From: a virus | Length of the DNA: 21,631 bases | IMG/VR virus record: IMGVR_UViG_3300024517_000126 | Location: 1-21,631 of that record | Direction: 5' to 3' (one strand) | Part shown: positions 8,204 to 17,515 of the stretch, one piece after another | Layout: every line of letters begins with the position of its first letter | Numbering within the stretch: position 1 is the stretch's first letter | Made by a program: the position numbers and the translations under genes | Notes under the pieces: model-generated | Database searches by the model: none | The model's input: only the letters and a program-made list of their open reading frames with translations | What the model was told of the DNA's origin: nothing

Positions 8204-9354
8204 TGGTTGCACAAGCTGTCCCTGTAGTAGAAGTCACTAAAGTTGGTACTCCTGCTGATAATCAGATAGCTGTATGGACAGGCGACGGCACGATTGAAGG
8301 TAACGCCTTCTTCACCTACAGTTTGGCTGATGAGTTGATGACGATAACCTGCGACCAGAACGTCATTAACGAGAACGGGTTACGATTCATAGACCCTAAT
8401 ACTGGTAGCGCGACCTCTGGATGGGAGTACAAGACGGGACAAGCAGGACTGTTTGTAGACTCCCTCATCCTGACAGACAAGCCAACCGATGCGATCAACA
8501 ACCGCTACATAACGCATGTATGGAATAACCGCCCGGTGTATGGTAAAGGTATAGCCATAGCCTCAAATACAGCACTCGCTGACGAGAGCTTAGGAGCACT
8601 GGCATACTACATGCCTCGCGATGCCACAGGCACGCATAGAGCAATTATATCCTTTGCCAGTAACACTGGATCAGGGCAATCCTCACAGTTTGCTTGGGAA
8701 ACATACATCTACGGAAACTCTGGTCTGCAACTTCGCCGTCCTGGTTTCATTCAGTCCGATGCTAATTATAACATTACATGGAAGTATCAGGGAATTGTAA
8801 GGCTCTATGATTCCAGCGACAACCAGACTAACTTCGCGCAGACAAAATACCTCCAACTAGAGCACGATGGCACAGATGTAAAACTCTCTGGTGCTAACAT
8901 CACTGACTACGAGTTCACAGGTGCGTCAGGCTCGTACAACTTTGACCAGAAAGTCATGCCCGCAGGGGACACAGCAGCAGCAGATGCCGCTGCCATCGGA
9001 TACACCGCTGCTGAGGGTTTGATCCTTACAGGACAGGGTACGACCAACGATGTAACAATTAAGAATGATGCTGATGGAGAAGTAATGGGTGTACTGACAG
9101 GTACAACAACTGCTGACTTCAAAGGCCAAGTTAATGTAGCAGCACTTTTAGTGCCTGCTTCTTATACACAATTACCGGGGTTCACAGATGCAGCATTGAA
9201 CTCACTTACGAATGCTGTTAATACTAATGTAGGTAAGGTGCAAGGAGCAATGGTCTATAACACCTCGCAAGATGCGCCCGTATATGCTGTCGGTAACACC
9301 GATGGTGCTGTCTGGGTAGACGGAGCAGGTACAACAGTGAATACACCCGTATAA
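8203..9354 (+). CDS. Tail-fibre-like protein A
   Basis: A 383-residue protein, Thr/Asn/Gly-rich, beta-predicted, without signal or membrane segment. It starts at a TAATG overlap. The N-terminus (GTPADNQIAVWTGDGTIEGNA) is a pattern common at the start of phage fibre and spike proteins. The C-terminus, GAMVYN then PVYAVG then WVDGAGTTVNTPV, is nearly repeated at the end of the protein at 11385-12050. It probably forms trimers on the virion and takes part in host binding. No enzyme motif is visible. Codon choice differs from the upstream genes (many ACA and GTA codons), suggesting module exchange. Confidence 0.75.
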   Translation: MVAQAVPVVEVTKVGTPADNQIAVWTGDGTIEGNAFFTYSLADELMTITCDQNVINENGLRFIDPNTGSATSGWEYKTGQAGLFVDSLILTDKPTDAINNRYITHVWNNRPVYGKGIAIASNTALADESLGALAYYMPRDATGTHRAIISFASNTGSGQSSQFAWETYIYGNSGLQLRRPGFIQSDANYNITWKYQGIVRLYDSSDNQTNFAQTKYLQLEHDGTDVKLSGANITDYEFTGASGSYNFDQKVMPAGDTAAADAAAIGYTAAEGLILTGQGTTNDVTIKNDADGEVMGVLTGTTTADFKGQVNVAALLVPASYTQLPGFTDAALNSLTNAVNTNVGKVQGAMVYNTSQDAPVYAVGNTDGAVWVDGAGTTVNTPV

Positions 9355-9638
9355 TGGAAATTCAACAAAAAGGTATTAAGTGGTGGAAGGACTGCCCCTG
9401 CTGTGGTTGGGAAGGTAAGGCCATTAAGCCTGATAATGATAATGCTGAATGCCCCAACTGTGGGCTTCCAGAATTACGCATGAATATAGATGAACGTGTC
9501 TTCAACGGAAGACGCTATGAACACGATGCAAGATCAGAAGATAAGCGACAAGATGCAGCCAATGTTCCAGACACCGTAAGTAGATCAAAGCCGGGGTTTA
9601 AATATAACCCTAACAGACCTAAACCAATATGGAGATAA
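9354..9638 (+). CDS. Small zinc-ribbon protein
   Basis: A 94-residue protein with start in a TAATG overlap. Two Cys knuckles, CPCCGWEG near residue 14 and CPNCGL near residue 33, would bind one zinc ion in a ribbon fold. The rest is basic and polar with a Pro/Arg-rich end (KYNPNRPKPIWR). Its place inside the fibre module suggests a small virion or assembly protein and not a regulator, but a nucleic-acid role cannot be excluded. The family is not recognised. Confidence 0.65.
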   Translation: MEIQQKGIKWWKDCPCCGWEGKAIKPDNDNAECPNCGLPELRMNIDERVFNGRRYEHDARSEDKRQDAANVPDTVSRSKPGFKYNPNRPKPIWR

Positions 9639-9641
9639 TCA

Positions 9642-9896
9642 ATGTCTTACGCTAATAGTCACGCAGTCGAGACTTCTCTCAATGGAACTGAAACCATATC
9701 GTTTCCGTGGCCTGTTAGGGAGATACAAATAACAAATGATTCAGCAGTCAATGATCTAAAGTATAAGTTCAAGTCTGCTGAAACATTCAGCACACTAAAG
9801 CCCGGAGAGAGTCGTAGACTTCCTCTGGTAAGGATTCATAATTTGTTTCTTAGTACTTCTGCATCTGTAGCATATAGAATTTGGGGGATAGGATGA
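9642..9896 (+). CDS. Small beta-rich protein in the fibre module
   Basis: An 84-residue protein with GGAGA at 9631-9635 before ATG 9642. It has alternating strands (VREIQITNDS, DLKYKFKSAETFSTLKPGESRRL, NLFLSTSASVAYRIWGIG), resembling small Ig-like or fibre-tip structural proteins of phages. The PGES turn is typical of beta-sandwich edges. It is coupled by ATGA to the next gene, the second structural paralog. A virion component is inferred. Confidence 0.6.
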   Translation: MSYANSHAVETSLNGTETISFPWPVREIQITNDSAVNDLKYKFKSAETFSTLKPGESRRLPLVRIHNLFLSTSASVAYRIWGIG

Positions 9897-10660
9897 GTTT
9901 AGATCAACTAAGAAATGCAGGGCCAACAAGCGATGTACTGCGTGCCGCGATGGGAGCAATACCCGGTGTCTCTTGCTACAACAAATTTGGGCGCAACACC
10001 TCCGTCGCGAGCGGAGTTGAGGAAGAAATATGGGACGGATCAGTAGCCTATACATTCCCAGCTACTGCACTGATGACCAGCATATCACAGACAACTGATC
10101 AAGCAGCTCTCCGTGGAGAGACTGTAGAGGTTCAGGGACTGGATGCTAACTACGCACTGGTAACACAGGATGCGGTGCTTGGTAATCCGTCTACCACAGT
10201 TGTCACTCTAACCACTCCACTACTCAGATGCTTCAGGATGAAGATTCAATCGAGTGTCGTTGCAGACTCAACAGTACGAGTGCACAACGCTGGTGAGACT
10301 ACAGACTATGCCGTCATCTCCGTTGGTAATCAGCAAACAGAGATGGCGATCTATACCGTCCCAGCATCTACGACAGCTTTCATAACATCCTACTACGCGC
10401 ACCACAACCCGACAACAGGTCAAGGCTTTACCTCTAATCCGATTAGATTGTGGAAGAGAGATAATGCAAATGGTTACGCTAAGCAGATCGAACATATAGT
10501 TGGTGTACCAGAAGATGGAGGGTTTCAACATTTCTTTACGCCTTACCTCAAGATAGAGGCTAAGTACGACCTCTTTTTAACAGCACAACCCGTAGGACAA
10601 GCCTCTGATATTTCAGCAGGGTTCGATATAATCTTAGTAGACGATGGAGTCTACGTATAA
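9893..10660 (+). CDS. Putative virion structural protein (copy 2 of the paralogous pair)
   Basis: A 255-residue paralog of the protein at 77-862. From NKFGRNT to the end the two match in order and length. Only the first 35 or so residues differ completely, as expected for different attachment points. The ATG is in an ATGA overlap with GGGGGA at 9883-9888 as ribosome site; the frame opens 12 bases earlier at a TTG. Codon choice differs: by hand count ACA is 10 of 20 Thr codons in the aligned core here, and 2 of 19 in copy 1. So this copy did not arise by recent duplication within this genome. Function unknown, probably virion. Confidence 0.75.
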   Translation: MSLDQLRNAGPTSDVLRAAMGAIPGVSCYNKFGRNTSVASGVEEEIWDGSVAYTFPATALMTSISQTTDQAALRGETVEVQGLDANYALVTQDAVLGNPSTTVVTLTTPLLRCFRMKIQSSVVADSTVRVHNAGETTDYAVISVGNQQTEMAIYTVPASTTAFITSYYAHHNPTTGQGFTSNPIRLWKRDNANGYAKQIEHIVGVPEDGGFQHFFTPYLKIEAKYDLFLTAQPVGQASDISAGFDIILVDDGVYV

Positions 10661-11384: not shown

Positions 11385-12050
11385 ATGGCAACAACAACTT
11401 TTGTAGATTTTACTACCACCATCGTAGCCGCGTGGCTAAACGATGTAGACGCCCTTGTCTATCAAGGTACACATAGTGCCGCTGCCACATTCGCAAGCAC
11501 TCTTGACGTTCAAGGAGCCTTCACCAGTCTAGGCATTAACGACGATGCCCCAGCCGAGAGACTGAATGTAGCAGACACCTTACTAACAGTAGGAACCGAT
11601 GGCGCTAATTATACCATGCGGGGTGCGTCTGCTACATCCAAGCTAACTATATCCTCCAGTTCCGTACACGGTAGTAGTCTAGCTCTATACGGGAATAATC
11701 ACGCAACTCTCGCCTCGAACTGGTATCTTAAGACTGTTGGTAGCGCAACCACCATCTCTTGGGATGAAAGTGCTGGTGAACTTGATTTCTACACAAAGGT
11801 TGGTACATCTAAAACATTAGCAATGAATATTACTGCTAATCAGAGTGTGGAACCCACATACTTTAAACTCCCGAGCGCGACCACAGCACAACTTGCTGAT
11901 GTAGGGCACGCGATTAATACAGGGGATCAGAAGGTGTTGGGTAGTGTTATGTACAATAGTGATACACACAATCCTGTGTATGCCGTAGGCAGTGCTCACG
12001 CAGATATCTGGGTAGACGGAGCTGGAACCACGGTACACTCACCAGTATAA
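11385..12050 (+). CDS. Tail-fibre-like protein B
   Basis: A 221-residue beta-rich protein with AGGA just before its ATG. Its N-terminal part contains GAFTSLGINDDA, shared with the protein at 12050-13579. Its C-terminus (GSVMYN, PVYAVG, IWVDGAGTTVHSPV) is shared with the protein at 8203-9354. It therefore looks like a recombined short fibre built from modules of its two neighbours. Its TAATG junction with the next gene repeats the DNA pattern at 9354. A virion role in adhesion is likely; a chaperone role for the neighbouring fibre is another possibility. Confidence 0.7.
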   Translation: MATTTFVDFTTTIVAAWLNDVDALVYQGTHSAAATFASTLDVQGAFTSLGINDDAPAERLNVADTLLTVGTDGANYTMRGASATSKLTISSSSVHGSSLALYGNNHATLASNWYLKTVGSATTISWDESAGELDFYTKVGTSKTLAMNITANQSVEPTYFKLPSATTAQLADVGHAINTGDQKVLGSVMYNSDTHNPVYAVGSAHADIWVDGAGTTVHSPV

Positions 12051-13579
12051 TGGCAACATATCAGCTACCGCCTCCGCCGGACGCTAAAGACCCACTGATA
12101 CAAGGATGGCTCTTTGAGCTATACAAGCGGAACACTAACATTGCCGAGCTAGGTACGTCTATAGATAGTCTTGGTGATGTTATTATAACAGGTACACCAG
12201 CTAATAATGAAGTTTTAGCTTGGGATGGTGGTGTAGCACAGTGGATTAACCAGACGGCTGTGGAAGCCGGACTGATTAGTACTGCCGGGGGGCAGACCAT
12301 TGCTGGGACACTTAGTGTATCAGGAGCATTCACCAGTCTTGGTATAAATGATGACGCTACCCTAGAGGTATTGAAGATTACTGATGGGGGTATAGTTCTA
12401 GGGGATGGTACACTTAATGGTACTATTATTCAGAGCATTGATACTGTTAATACCATTATAACTGGAGGTAATACAGAGGCATCAGGCGGTAGAATAATAC
12501 TAAATGGATCGTCTCATGCTGATGGTGCTGACTCTCAATTCTTTGCCGGGCCACACCTCTGGATGAGGTTCGATGATTCTGTAGGTGACCTTGAAATATT
12601 AACAGGTACAGTAGGATCAAAGACTCCAGCCCTAACAATTAATGCAGCCCAGACAGCCACATTCACAGGGCTTATTTCGGCTGAGAAAGGAATTAACGTA
12701 GCTGGAACCACGTCTGGCACCATAAACTTAACGGGCACTTCTGGACATGCAATCATTAATCTGTTCGCCTCGGGTACAAACGATGGGTTCATAGATTTCT
12801 TCTCTGGTGCAGCACTAAAGGCTAGAATTAGTGCCTTAGATACTAGCGTCTTAAACTTCTACACAGGCGCTACACCTAGCCTAGCCCTAACAATTGACTC
12901 CTCTCAGAATATTGCAATGGCTGGTGAGGCGTTTGTGATAACTAACGCTGGTAACCCACGGATCGATATAACCGATTCAGGATCAAGCAGCACCCTACGA
13001 CTTGCAGCCGAAGGAGCCTCGGTGGTTGTGGGGGCTGAGTCTAATCACCCTCTCGTATTACAGACCAATGCTCTCACAGCACTAACAGTTAATGCAGACC
13101 AATCGGTAGACATTACCAACCATATTGGTTTTCCCGCAACACAAGTACCGTCAGCAGGTGCTAATGATCTTGATGATTACAGGGAAGGCACTTGGACAGT
13201 GGAGATGTACGATGCTCTTACTGGTGGTAATAAATCGGCAACAACTATTACGGGGAATTACACCCGCGTTGGCAATATAGTTTGTGCACGGTTCAACTCC
13301 TTCAACAATATTGATACAACAGGTATGTCGGCAGGGAACTTTATATATATAACCCTTCCATTCGCCGCCGCTTTTGATTGTATAGGTGTACTGATGCAAA
13401 CTGGTCTAACCATGACTGCTAACTATACAATGCTCAGTCCTCTCGTATCCAGTACGAGGGATCGATTTCATATAAGAGAGTCGGGGCCAGCCCTTAGTGA
13501 TTTAGGAATGCAGATCAGTACAATCACATCAACTACAGATGATATAGACGACTTCTGCATGACGTATCTAGCAGAGTGA
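12050..13579 (+). CDS. Tail-fibre-like protein C, large receptor-binding candidate
   Basis: A 509-residue protein. The Pro-rich start (YQLPPPPDAKDPLIQGWLFELYKRN) looks like a virion-attachment segment. GTPANNEVLAWDGGVAQW and GAFTSLGINDDA follow, then a long series of short beta repeats with the form ALTINAAQTATF, ALTIDSSQNIAM and ALTVNADQSVDI at roughly 100-residue spacing, typical of trimeric fibre shafts. The C-terminal 140 residues (IGFPATQVPSAGANDLDDYREGTWTV, then a GNYTRVGN strand) match a common phage fibre tip pattern. It is the last late gene and the best candidate for direct receptor contact. Confidence 0.75.
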   Translation: MATYQLPPPPDAKDPLIQGWLFELYKRNTNIAELGTSIDSLGDVIITGTPANNEVLAWDGGVAQWINQTAVEAGLISTAGGQTIAGTLSVSGAFTSLGINDDATLEVLKITDGGIVLGDGTLNGTIIQSIDTVNTIITGGNTEASGGRIILNGSSHADGADSQFFAGPHLWMRFDDSVGDLEILTGTVGSKTPALTINAAQTATFTGLISAEKGINVAGTTSGTINLTGTSGHAIINLFASGTNDGFIDFFSGAALKARISALDTSVLNFYTGATPSLALTIDSSQNIAMAGEAFVITNAGNPRIDITDSGSSSTLRLAAEGASVVVGAESNHPLVLQTNALTALTVNADQSVDITNHIGFPATQVPSAGANDLDDYREGTWTVEMYDALTGGNKSATTITGNYTRVGNIVCARFNSFNNIDTTGMSAGNFIYITLPFAAAFDCIGVLMQTGLTMTANYTMLSPLVSSTRDRFHIRESGPALSDLGMQISTITSTTDDIDDFCMTYLAE

Positions 13580-13589
13580 GCAGCCCTGC

Positions 13590-13811
13590 TTAATAACAAC
13601 GAGTGAACATGATGCCTGGTCGATCACTCCCATTGAAATAGATCGATCTGATATGCGCCTTCTTCTTTGGATGGGTGCTTAGATCAATCGGCGGAACTGA
13701 TTTGGCAAGGATGGTATACGCCTTGTTACATTCGTCTGCATCCTTGTAAACATCGATGAAGCAATCCCAAACGCCAGGCTGAATCATCAACCATAGCATC
13801 ATGGTTTTCAT
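13590..13811 (-). CDS. Small hypothetical protein at the end of the early operon
   Basis: A 73-residue protein with hydrophobic N-terminus (MMLWLMIQPGVW) and two or three Cys (CFIDVYKDADEC), similar in feel to small secreted phage proteins; the hydrophobic run is too short for a confident signal peptide. It overlaps by ATGA with the end of a remnant of the 15163-15633 gene. The leader is therefore the same DNA that precedes methyltransferase 2. It converges with the late operon, with only 10 bases between stops. Function unknown. Confidence 0.55.
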   Translation of the reverse strand: MKTMMLWLMIQPGVWDCFIDVYKDADECNKAYTILAKSVPPIDLSTHPKKKAHIRSIYFNGSDRPGIMFTRCY

Positions 13812-13865
13812 CTATCTGAACAGCGTCTTGTGCGCTTGGCTTCTATCTGCTTCACGATATGATCG
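13805..13865. repeat. Direct repeat, distal copy flanking the methyltransferase pair
   Basis: Two blocks are identical to DNA at 15160-15223: 25 bases at 13805-13829 and 22 bases at 13844-13865. The spacer is 14 bases here and 17 in the other copy. The two copies are in the same orientation, 1355 bases apart, and bracket the two methyltransferase genes. Confidence 0.9.
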
Positions 13866-13879
13866 AGGATTATTTCATG
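13808..13879 (-). pseudogene. Remnant copy of the 3' end of the coiled-coil gene at 15163-15633
   Basis: Twenty-three codons plus a stop, without an ATG, encode HEIILDHIVKQIEAKRTRRCSDR. This matches DHIVKQIKELAEKRRCSDR, the end of the 15163-15633 protein, apart from an indel of one codon. The stop again overlaps an ATG (ATGA). Its upstream end merges into the stop of methyltransferase 1. It is a fragment left by duplication or cassette insertion. Confidence 0.75.
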
Positions 13880-14498
13880 CGAATAAATCTATTTGTGAAG
13901 TCTCAGCCTCGAAACGCTCACAACCTGATTTATAGTAATCCTCGTCTATCTCACACAAAACAAGGTCACAACCGAAATAATGGCAAGCTACCGCTGAACT
14001 CATAGAACCGCCGTGGGTGTCTAGTATCTTTTGATTTGGTTCGGCGTAATTGGTTAATAACCATTCGTAAAGTTTTACGGGTTTTTGTGTTGGGTGTGTT
14101 CTGCTGGGATCTGATGACCTTAGTTTAAATAGCTTTGCTGGTTTATCAAACGATGTCCATGCCATCTCCCATTGTGAAAAATTAGGGTAAAACTGCTGCT
14201 TATCCCAGCAGATGATTCCTCTTGTTGGGGGAAGATCAAAGTAATTACCACCAAAGATTATCTGGTTGCATGATACCCTGAACATTTCTATAAAATATTC
14301 TTTTGTTGGTATACTGTGATCCCAGCCTTCCATCTTATCGTACAGAGAACGAACCATTTTTATCTTATCCCCCTCCTTCCCGCCTCCAAACATTTTATCG
14401 CCTATCCCATAGGGCGGGTCAACAATAGCCAAATCAAAAGCGTTATCCTCGCAACCTTTCATATAGGTCATACAGTCTTGGTGTAGTAGCTCTATCAT
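13875..14498 (-). CDS. DNA methyltransferase 1 (beta-class, DPPY type), with altered AdoMet motif
   Basis: A 207-residue member of the N6_N4_Mtase family, which methylates the exocyclic amino group of adenine or cytosine using AdoMet. The catalytic DPPYG is at residues 27-31 near the N-terminus and the AdoMet-binding region (LDTHGGSMSS, 159-168) at the C-terminus, the beta-class order. DPPY favours N6-adenine. HPTQKP at 135-140 is conserved. It is a tandem paralog of the next gene, coupled by ATGA. Odd point: the AdoMet loop reads GGSMSS where the paralog and the family have LGSGSS. This change may reduce or abolish activity. No cognate restriction enzyme lies near, so it is an orphan, probably against host restriction. 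Confidence 0.85.
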   Translation of the reverse strand: MIELLHQDCMTYMKGCEDNAFDLAIVDPPYGIGDKMFGGGKEGDKIKMVRSLYDKMEGWDHSIPTKEYFIEMFRVSCNQIIFGGNYFDLPPTRGIICWDKQQFYPNFSQWEMAWTSFDKPAKLFKLRSSDPSRTHPTQKPVKLYEWLLTNYAEPNQKILDTHGGSMSSAVACHYFGCDLVLCEIDEDYYKSGCERFEAETSQIDLFA

Positions 14499-15166
14499 GC
14501 AAATATATCCAGTTGCGCTGTTTCAGCTTCAAATCGCTTCATAGCTGCATCATAGTAATCCTTGTCAATCTCCATGCCTACAAAATCAAAACCTCCGTAG
14601 TGGGCTGCTATCGCGCTACTGCCGGAGCCTAAATGAGTGTCTAGTATCTTGTCGCCTTCTTTGGCGTAGTTTCTTAATAGCCATTCGTATAAACCTATAG
14701 GCTTTTGCGTTGGGTGTATTTTTAAATCTCTAACCATTTTTGTCTTCGTCGTAATGGCATTCGGTGGGCCGATATAATTACCCTGATTTTTATATTCAAA
14801 ATGTTTCATCGGCTTCTTAAATGTCGTGTACGCTAATTCTCCTGATGCAAATGTTTTACCGTATCTGTGGCCTTCTTTGTCCTGCATTTTATCCCAATAT
14901 ATCCAAGCACCTGTCGGTTTCAATTTATCAGCGAAATAATTTCCGCCCCATATAATCGAGTTTCTGCTAACCCTTAACAGTTCAGTGAAATACTCAAGAT
15001 CCGGTGTCGATTTGTCCCATTCCTTTTCTTTAAAACTGCCAAGACCGACACTTCCGCCATCCATGCCAATCCCATAAGGCGGGTCAACAATAGCTAAATC
15101 AAAAGCATTGTCCTCACAGCCTTTCATGTAATCCATACAGTCCATGTGGAGTAGTTCTATTTTCAT
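14495..15166 (-). CDS. DNA methyltransferase 2 (beta-class, DPPY type)
   Basis: A 223-residue N6_N4_Mtase family enzyme with all expected motifs: DPPYG at residues 28-32, HPTQKP at 151-156 and an intact LDTHLGSGSS AdoMet loop at 175-184. The first 30 residues are nearly the same as in methyltransferase 1 (MDCMDYMKGCEDNAFDLAIVDPPYGIG against QDCMTYMKGCEDNAFDLAIVDPPYGIG), as are the ends (RFEAETAQLDIFA, RFEAETSQIDLFA). The middles, where target recognition is expected, differ strongly, which suggests different target sites. The start overlaps the previous stop as ATGA. Probably protects phage DNA from host restriction; a regulatory role is possible. Confidence 0.9.
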   Translation of the reverse strand: MKIELLHMDCMDYMKGCEDNAFDLAIVDPPYGIGMDGGSVGLGSFKEKEWDKSTPDLEYFTELLRVSRNSIIWGGNYFADKLKPTGAWIYWDKMQDKEGHRYGKTFASGELAYTTFKKPMKHFEYKNQGNYIGPPNAITTKTKMVRDLKIHPTQKPIGLYEWLLRNYAKEGDKILDTHLGSGSSAIAAHYGGFDFVGMEIDKDYYDAAMKRFEAETAQLDIFA

Positions 15167-15223
15167 CTATCTGAACAGCGTCTTTTTTCTGCCAGTTCCT
15201 TTATCTGCTTCACGATATGATCG
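15160..15223. repeat. Direct repeat, proximal copy flanking the methyltransferase pair
   Basis: Contains the same 25-base block (15160-15184) and 22-base block (15202-15223) as 13805-13865. It covers the last 20 codons of the coiled-coil gene and the ATG of methyltransferase 2. The identical blocks are long enough to act as substrates for phage or host recombination. Confidence 0.9.
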
Positions 15224-15633
15224 TAGTCAAAATCAACACTATTCCTGAGAAATTCCAGAGCCAGTGTTGTTTCTAATGACGCTACCCGCGCCTGTAGGGA
15301 TTCGATAGCATCGGCTGCTTCCATTGTGTGAATATGGTATGGGATATGCGTCGTATCTCGCAACCGATTAAGTAGTTCATCAGTGCCTATACGGGAATTA
15401 CATTCTTCCCGCAGTTTAATATTTTCATTGAGTGCTTTCCGCAATTCTTTTTGTAGTCCGTACTCACTCATCTGATCGATCTGATCCGGTTCAATGTCCA
15501 TCGTGCCACTTCCATTGGTTAGTTCGGCTATTAATTCATCTGGAAATAGTGCGATGAATGCGCCAGAACCAGACCCAGGAGTGCGCTTTGCGAATGCCGC
15601 CTCTATCTGTTTTATTGTGAACTTGTCAGTCAT
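15163..15633 (-). CDS. Hypothetical coiled-coil protein upstream of the methyltransferases
   Basis: A 156-residue protein; ATG 15633 has GGA just upstream and overlaps the previous gene's end, while the frame runs 10 codons further to a TTG. The N-terminal part (FTIKQIEAAFAKRTPGSGSGAF) is unlike anything I recognise. The second half is a charged coiled coil (LQKELRKALNENIKLREECNSR, then AADAIESLQARVASLETTLALEFL). The end HIVKQIKELAEKRRCSDR is duplicated at 13808-13879. It ends in ATGA with methyltransferase 2. Function unknown. Confidence 0.65.
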   Translation of the reverse strand: MTDKFTIKQIEAAFAKRTPGSGSGAFIALFPDELIAELTNGSGTMDIEPDQIDQMSEYGLQKELRKALNENIKLREECNSRIGTDELLNRLRDTTHIPYHIHTMEAADAIESLQARVASLETTLALEFLRNSVDFDYDHIVKQIKELAEKRRCSDR

Positions 15634-15853
15634 GCCATTTCCAACCAAGCAGGTAGGCGGCAAAGAATTTATTCAATACAGATGGTTTCTTTTCCACACT
15701 AATGTGTAAATTACCACTGATCTGCCAGTGTCCTGCCGGTGGTGGTGGTTCAGAAAAAATAAAGGAAGTAGGGTTTTTCAATTTCAAACTTCCTCCCTCA
15801 AGGCACCAGGGCTGATGGTGTCCATGCTCGCACCCACATTCAATACAACTCAT
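15626..15853 (-). CDS. Small Cys/His-rich protein, possible metal binding
   Basis: A 75-residue protein whose first 20 residues (MSCIECGCEHGHHQPWCLEG) hold five Cys or metal-type positions and three His, a likely zinc site. The remainder is Pro-rich then aromatic. A GGAG motif precedes ATG 15853. Its end overlaps the ATG of the next gene by 8 bases. No family recognised. A 20-codon ORF at 15840-15902 overlaps its leader and is not called. Confidence 0.55.
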   Translation of the reverse strand: MSCIECGCEHGHHQPWCLEGGSLKLKNPTSFIFSEPPPPAGHWQISGNLHISVEKKPSVLNKFFAAYLLGWKWHD

Positions 15854-17032: not shown

Positions 17033-17515
17033 CTATATTAGATAGCCCATTAATTCGGGATAATTGAATTTGTTTCCGAGTGCTTCAACTACGCCGATAT
17101 TTTCAGACTCGGGTGCGCCAACCAGGTTATAGGTTTCCTTGTTGTATATATAAATGTGGGATGGAACCTTAATCTTGCCCATGACAAAATCAATTCCCTT
17201 CTCGGTTATCCTCCATTCCCCACTGGATTTTTTGCTTGAATCCTCGTTTTGCTTTTCGGATATCAAGCCCCAATGTCTCAGCTTCGCCCAATCCCCGCAA
17301 CTGTAATAGACAGTTTTGATAAACTTACTACGATGAAAAAATTCAGGGTTGTTTAGGTCAGTTATTTTGAATAGGTCAATCAGTTCTCGAACTGCCATGC
17401 CTGCCATTTTCCGTTTGTAGAGTTTGACTGTCTGATGGCAGCAGTCACAAATTGCTCCTTGCGGGGTGAGCCAACCTTGCCGCAAATCAGCCTTTGCTGC
17501 TTGTAAGGTATCCAT
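17033..17515 (-). CDS. Conserved phage protein, possible winged-helix fold
   Basis: A 160-residue protein with CDCCHQTVKLYKR at 22-34, a potential metal knuckle, followed by helices (AGMAVRELIDLFKI) and KLRHWGLISEK then GEWRITEKGIDFVMGKIKVP. The last part looks like the helix plus beta-hairpin wing of a winged-helix domain. It is a pattern I recall in many phages near replication genes, without a known function. AGGAG precedes the ATG. Gene spacing on both sides is tight. Confidence 0.65.
   Translation of the reverse strand: MDTLQAAKADLRQGWLTPQGAICDCCHQTVKLYKRKMAGMAVRELIDLFKITDLNNPEFFHRSKFIKTVYYSCGDWAKLRHWGLISEKQNEDSSKKSSGEWRITEKGIDFVMGKIKVPSHIYIYNKETYNLVGAPESENIGVVEALGNKFNYPELMGYLI

Follow-up and report, generated by a model that had tools for sequence, protein, structure and literature searches.

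A duplicated gene end next to two methyltransferase genes in a phage operon, a probable scar of gene insertion

Two neighboring DNA methyltransferase genes (MT1 and MT2) in the early-type operon of a phage lie between two copies of the 3' end of a coiled-coil gene (CC). We consider it probable that this methyltransferase pair goes back to a past gene insertion, by recombination between phages at a border where genes overlap, and that the second copy of the CC end is the scar of this event. Scars of gene insertion are an already known kind of structure and reflect a known route by which phages gain genes.

Results

The phage genome is the IMG/VR virus record IMGVR_UViG_3300024517_000126, which was analyzed over its whole 21,631 bases (the window). 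Terminase, portal and tail-like genes are found on the plus strand. The minus strand carries the early-type operon, which runs from about 18.7 kb to 13.6 kb, head-on with the tail gene at 12050-13579. In transcription order it consists of an exonuclease-like gene, a 75-codon gene, CC, MT1, MT2, copy 2 of the repeat and a 73-codon ORF (Table 1). CC probably starts at the ATG at 15633 rather than at the TTG at 15663. On the plus strand, the genes at 14-862 and 9881-10660 are paralogues (73% identity over 202 bases, part of their length), and two tail-region genes, which overlap the next gene by TAATG, have similar 3' ends (9277-9360 and 11973-12056; 84 bases, 70%).

Table 1. Features of the minus-strand operon around the methyltransferase genes, with positions in the window.
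Feature	Position	Strand	Remarks
Exonuclease-like gene	17022-16258	minus	
75-codon gene	between exonuclease-like gene and CC	minus	
Coiled-coil gene (CC)	15163-15633	minus	weak match to phrog_1748 (unknown function)
Copy 1 of repeat	15160-15223	minus	true 3' end of CC; terminal ATGA is the MT1 start
MT1, N6/N4 DNA methyltransferase	14495-15166	minus	PF01555 (1.3e-18), 223 aa
MT2, N6/N4 DNA methyltransferase	13875-14498	minus	PF01555 (4.8e-12), 207 aa
Copy 2 of repeat	13805-13865	minus	61 bases; probable 3'-end remnant of a CC allele; terminal ATGA
73-codon ORF	13590-13811	minus	without known family

The two copies have a 25-base block (13805-13829 and 15160-15184, 25/25 identical) and a 22-base block (13844-13865 and 15202-15223, 22/22 identical) in common, both collinear and in equal orientation. 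No third copy of either block was found in the whole window, and none in 100 shuffles. The base composition leads one to expect about 3e-7 exact pairs of the longer and about 2e-5 of the shorter block; chance does not explain the repeat pair. The middle between the blocks is dissimilar, with 17 bases in copy 1 (AAGGAACTGGCAGAAAA) and 14 bases in copy 2 (GAAGCCAAGCGCAC). This 3-base difference in length preserves the frame (KELAEK versus EAKRT), and copy 2 would read ...DHIVKQIEAKRTRRCSDR where CC reads ...DHIVKQIKELAEKRRCSDR, each followed by a stop. The initial annotation had described both blocks in this order and orientation and had taken copy 1 as the genuine end of CC and copy 2 as a fragment of it, and on all these points it was borne out. 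The ATGA overlaps that it placed at the end of both copies are also present. Copy 2 leads into the 73-codon ORF (start 13811), and copy 1 leads into the gene that the initial annotation named methyltransferase 2, which comes first in transcription order and is termed MT1 here (start 15166). Both methyltransferase genes do lie between the copies, and the claim of an exact bracketing is slightly loose, because 9 bases separate the MT2 stop from copy 2.

Two close relatives were recovered from IMG/VR (3300027868_000322 and 3300024057_000160), about 99.4-99.6% identical to the window. They are near-identical records of the same virus, and these searches returned no diverged relatives of the border between CC and the 73-codon ORF. 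Both show the long form, with both methyltransferase genes and both repeats at equal spacing and without a base change in the repeats. This agrees, as far as these records reach, with the outcome that the initial annotation had named as refuting its idea, but with two records of one virus a short form may well exist elsewhere. Between 13785 and 15835 the three records differ by a single synonymous change, located in MT2 of one relative, and the 73-codon ORF has one synonymous change among them. Since the arrangement is the same in three records, an assembly error is unlikely. The short form, in which CC would directly precede the 73-codon ORF and which the initial annotation had advised to seek in related genomes, was not found in IMG/VR with the CC and 73-codon proteins and the exact repeat patterns as queries. 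Homologues of CC or of the 73-codon ORF were likewise not found in 50,697 phage records or in the genome contigs. Relatives recovered via the exonuclease gene are about 32-40% identical, too distant to inform on this border, and searches with the CC protein otherwise gave distant or rearranged partial matches alone (L004 and L095). Positions 15296-15426 of CC and L004:4965-5051, on a 49-kb contig otherwise unrelated to the window, have stretches of 51 bases (94%) and 26 bases (100%) in common, in opposite order; judging by such matches, CC genes may be assembled from exchangeable short pieces. Within the gene at 17033-17515, the relatives diverge from the window at 17068-17438 and match it on both flanks, a pattern that we read as an allele swap inside this gene.

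When a crossover is simulated in silico in one or the other block, 1355 or 1358 bases are lost and an intact CC ORF of 166 or 165 codons (from TTG) results, joined to the 73-codon ORF by an ATGA overlap, as the initial annotation had foreseen. Such products raise the question of whether excision of the segment is frequent enough to be measured, in which case long and short forms would coexist in the population. The repeats offer 25 and 22 identical bases at a distance of 1355 bases, both crossover products are in frame, and phage T4 amplifies and deletes DNA between short homologies (PMC9391042), which makes present-day excision possible in principle. Against this, all three records (3/3) are of the long form and their repeats are unchanged. 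General recombination has a lower length limit near 25 bases, and the longer block is thus close to it. We regard present-day excision of the methyltransferase segment as improbable.

MT1 and MT2 both score above the curated cut-off of PF01555 (68.2 and 46.8 bits; cut-off 26.7), and both have a DPPY motif plus a second motif, DTHLGSGSS and DTHGGSMSS, respectively. Their role is probably to mask the phage DNA from host restriction. In domain, size and phage context they are like the orphan DNA methyltransferases of tailed phages (PF01555, phrog_67), and like these they have no recognized restriction gene next to them; unlike these, they occur here as two dissimilar copies in tandem. The two proteins are 52% identical, and the genes reach 83% over 96 bases at the 5' end. 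DNA identity within the pair peaks in the first 120 bases or so, both in the window and in the tandem pair of contig L015.

Adjacent paralogues with such similar 5' ends would be expected if the CC end and a methyltransferase gene had been duplicated in tandem within one molecule and then partly lost. The CC end is absent between MT1 and MT2, however, and the two repeat middles differ while staying in frame. Moreover, a tree of 66 sequences places MT1 as sister to the second methyltransferase of L015 (99/85) and MT2 elsewhere, with the first methyltransferase of L015 joining L019. Because MT1 clusters with the L015 protein without MT2, a simple, recent tandem duplication does not account for the pair, and the tree does not support it. 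We therefore rate an origin by intramolecular duplication and loss as quite improbable. Such methyltransferase pairs seem to be built from diverged members, perhaps via common ends, and not by recent duplication.

Direct repeats on both sides of a segment could also be the target-site duplication of a mobile element. The repeats are about 61-64 bases long, their middles are unlike and their lengths differ by 3 bases. Between them there is no gene for a transposase, an integrase or a homing nuclease, and the sole inverted repeats are of 10-13 bases, none of which links the two segment ends. With no mobility gene, terminal inverted repeats or short identical target duplication found on the segment, an insertion of the transposon or homing type was rejected, and this origin is very improbable. 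The segment does not resemble a moron either: a terminator-like site was not found in it, promoter-like sites are not above chance and the genes are joined by ATGA.

We compared the flanks of methyltransferase genes at 111 phage methyltransferase loci. In the unrelated contig L153 (1041-1822), a helicase gene (SNF2/ResIII) is followed by a methyltransferase gene, a 28-codon remnant of the helicase 3' end and a VRR-NUC gene. The methyltransferase starts at an ATGA inside the helicase 3' end, and VRR-NUC starts at the same ATGA position of the remnant, which is about 85% identical to the helicase end over 59 bases and has its own ATG. By its gene order and junctions, we take L153 to be an independent case of the plan seen in the window. 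In Nitratiruptor phage NrS-1, a related helicase gene overlaps an annotated endonuclease gene by 83 bases without a methyltransferase, but a ligase gene comes after the helicase in three further phages, so the overlap of helicase and nuclease is one natural arrangement among others.

The remnant in L153 bears on whether copy 2 is kept for a function, as a short translated leader or start region that couples translation of the 73-codon gene. In the window, the frame of copy 2 is open back to 13888, over 26 codons (IYSHEIILDHIVKQIEAKRTRRCSDR followed by a stop); a GTG lies at 13855, and the stop of the frame is overlapped by the start of the gene that follows. An own ATG in the L153 remnant and the lack of base changes among the three records would agree with such a role. 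By eye, though, no good ribosome site precedes the GTG. Conservation among such similar relatives carries no weight, and a function would leave the origin of copy 2 unexplained while being compatible with an insertion scar. We think it improbable that function is the explanation.

Mirror-image arrangements occur in L015 and L027, where 5' fragments of the downstream gene lie ahead of the methyltransferase gene, and in L022, where a 15-base repeat would put a downstream-gene start before it. In L015 (3311-4700), each of the two tandem methyltransferase genes comes after a short mini-ORF in which the downstream gene's 5' end is copied (MTEEAETWAQWG...). Bracketing repeats were found at 4 of 110 methyltransferase genes, this virus excluded, and at 15 of 533 other ORFs of the same contigs (p = 0.55), several of the latter being tandem or start-associated repeats of another nature. 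Bracketing repeats as a specific mark of methyltransferase genes were rejected, as the enrichment is not significant (p 0.47-0.55); repeats at gene borders are consequently not special to methyltransferases. One could still envisage that methyltransferase genes enter operons repeatably at ATGA borders, the newcomer taking the exact start position of the downstream gene and the upstream 3' end being duplicated, which would preserve both starts. Under such a rule the window and L153 would have arisen independently, with L015, L027 and L022 as the mirror image. We put this forward tentatively and think it rather unlikely to hold.

Discussion

We favor an insertion at the border between CC and the 73-codon gene. 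In the ancestral early operon, CC would have stood directly before the 73-codon gene with an ATGA overlap, and the incoming phage would have carried an allele of the same CC gene followed by methyltransferase genes. One crossover would have fallen within CC sequence common to both phages. The other, presumably illegitimate, would have fused the MT2 end to the resident CC somewhere within its last 20 or so codons. If the start signals of the downstream gene sit within the CC 3' end, recombinants with a duplicated end would be those that still express CC, the methyltransferase genes and the 73-codon gene, and the second copy would for this reason be the scar. The predicted recipient would have a CC gene that ends in ...IEAKRTRRCSDR and is followed by the 73-codon gene, and the predicted donor would have CC, then MT1-MT2 and then another gene.

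The unlike, in-frame middle suggests that copy 2 stems from another CC allele and points to recombination between phages. In a decaying duplicate, changes should be evenly spread; perfect blocks around a replaced middle that stays in frame would fit two alleles of a working gene better. Against an insertion stands that neither the short form nor a donor phage nor a further CC allele was found in searches that covered IMG/VR, phage records and genome contigs and, for the copy-2 peptide, phages. By eye, neither copy has a clear Shine-Dalgarno sequence, and bracketing repeats are not enriched at methyltransferase genes over other ORFs.

A comparable case is known from Cluster I mycobacteriophages, where gene 68 of Island3 is absent from Brujita and a 60-base 3' end is common to genes 67 and 68. 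The authors propose recombination between sequences of about 50 bases and regard deletion and insertion as indistinguishable (PMC3029335). As there, the extra genes of the window are tied to a duplicated upstream-gene 3' end of about 60 bases that lies around them, and a crossover, here in silico, restores a functional gene order. The cases differ in that the single-copy form, a recombinant of both copies, is known for Island3/Brujita, whereas both near-identical relatives of the window are long. Furthermore, the extra gene of Island3 itself ends in the repeat, while in the window two methyltransferase genes precede a free-standing remnant. The unlike middles of the window favor an origin from two alleles. 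Short conserved boundary sequences are also described for lambdoid phages (Clark, 2001; Susskind and Botstein, 1978, both as cited in PMC3029335). The repeats are like them in being short homologies at gene borders, which are proposed places of exchange. Lambdoid boundary sequences are common to many phages, unlike the repeats of the window, which within the collection searched are confined to this virus. Regarding the mobility proposed by the initial annotation, an insertion without damage is upheld by the anatomy of the locus, by L153, by the mirror cases L015, L027 and L022 and by Island3/Brujita, but the parts that call the cassette excisable or able to be lost did not gain support.

In the methyltransferase segment, a gain of genes by an operon with overlapping genes can thus be read from its scar. 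Taken with L153, the segment points to a reason for the piece of neighboring gene in such scars: if the end of one gene overlaps the start of the next, a damage-free addition needs a duplicated border. This idea is open to testing on thousands of phage genomes, and the gain and loss of methyltransferases bears on the escape of phages from host restriction.
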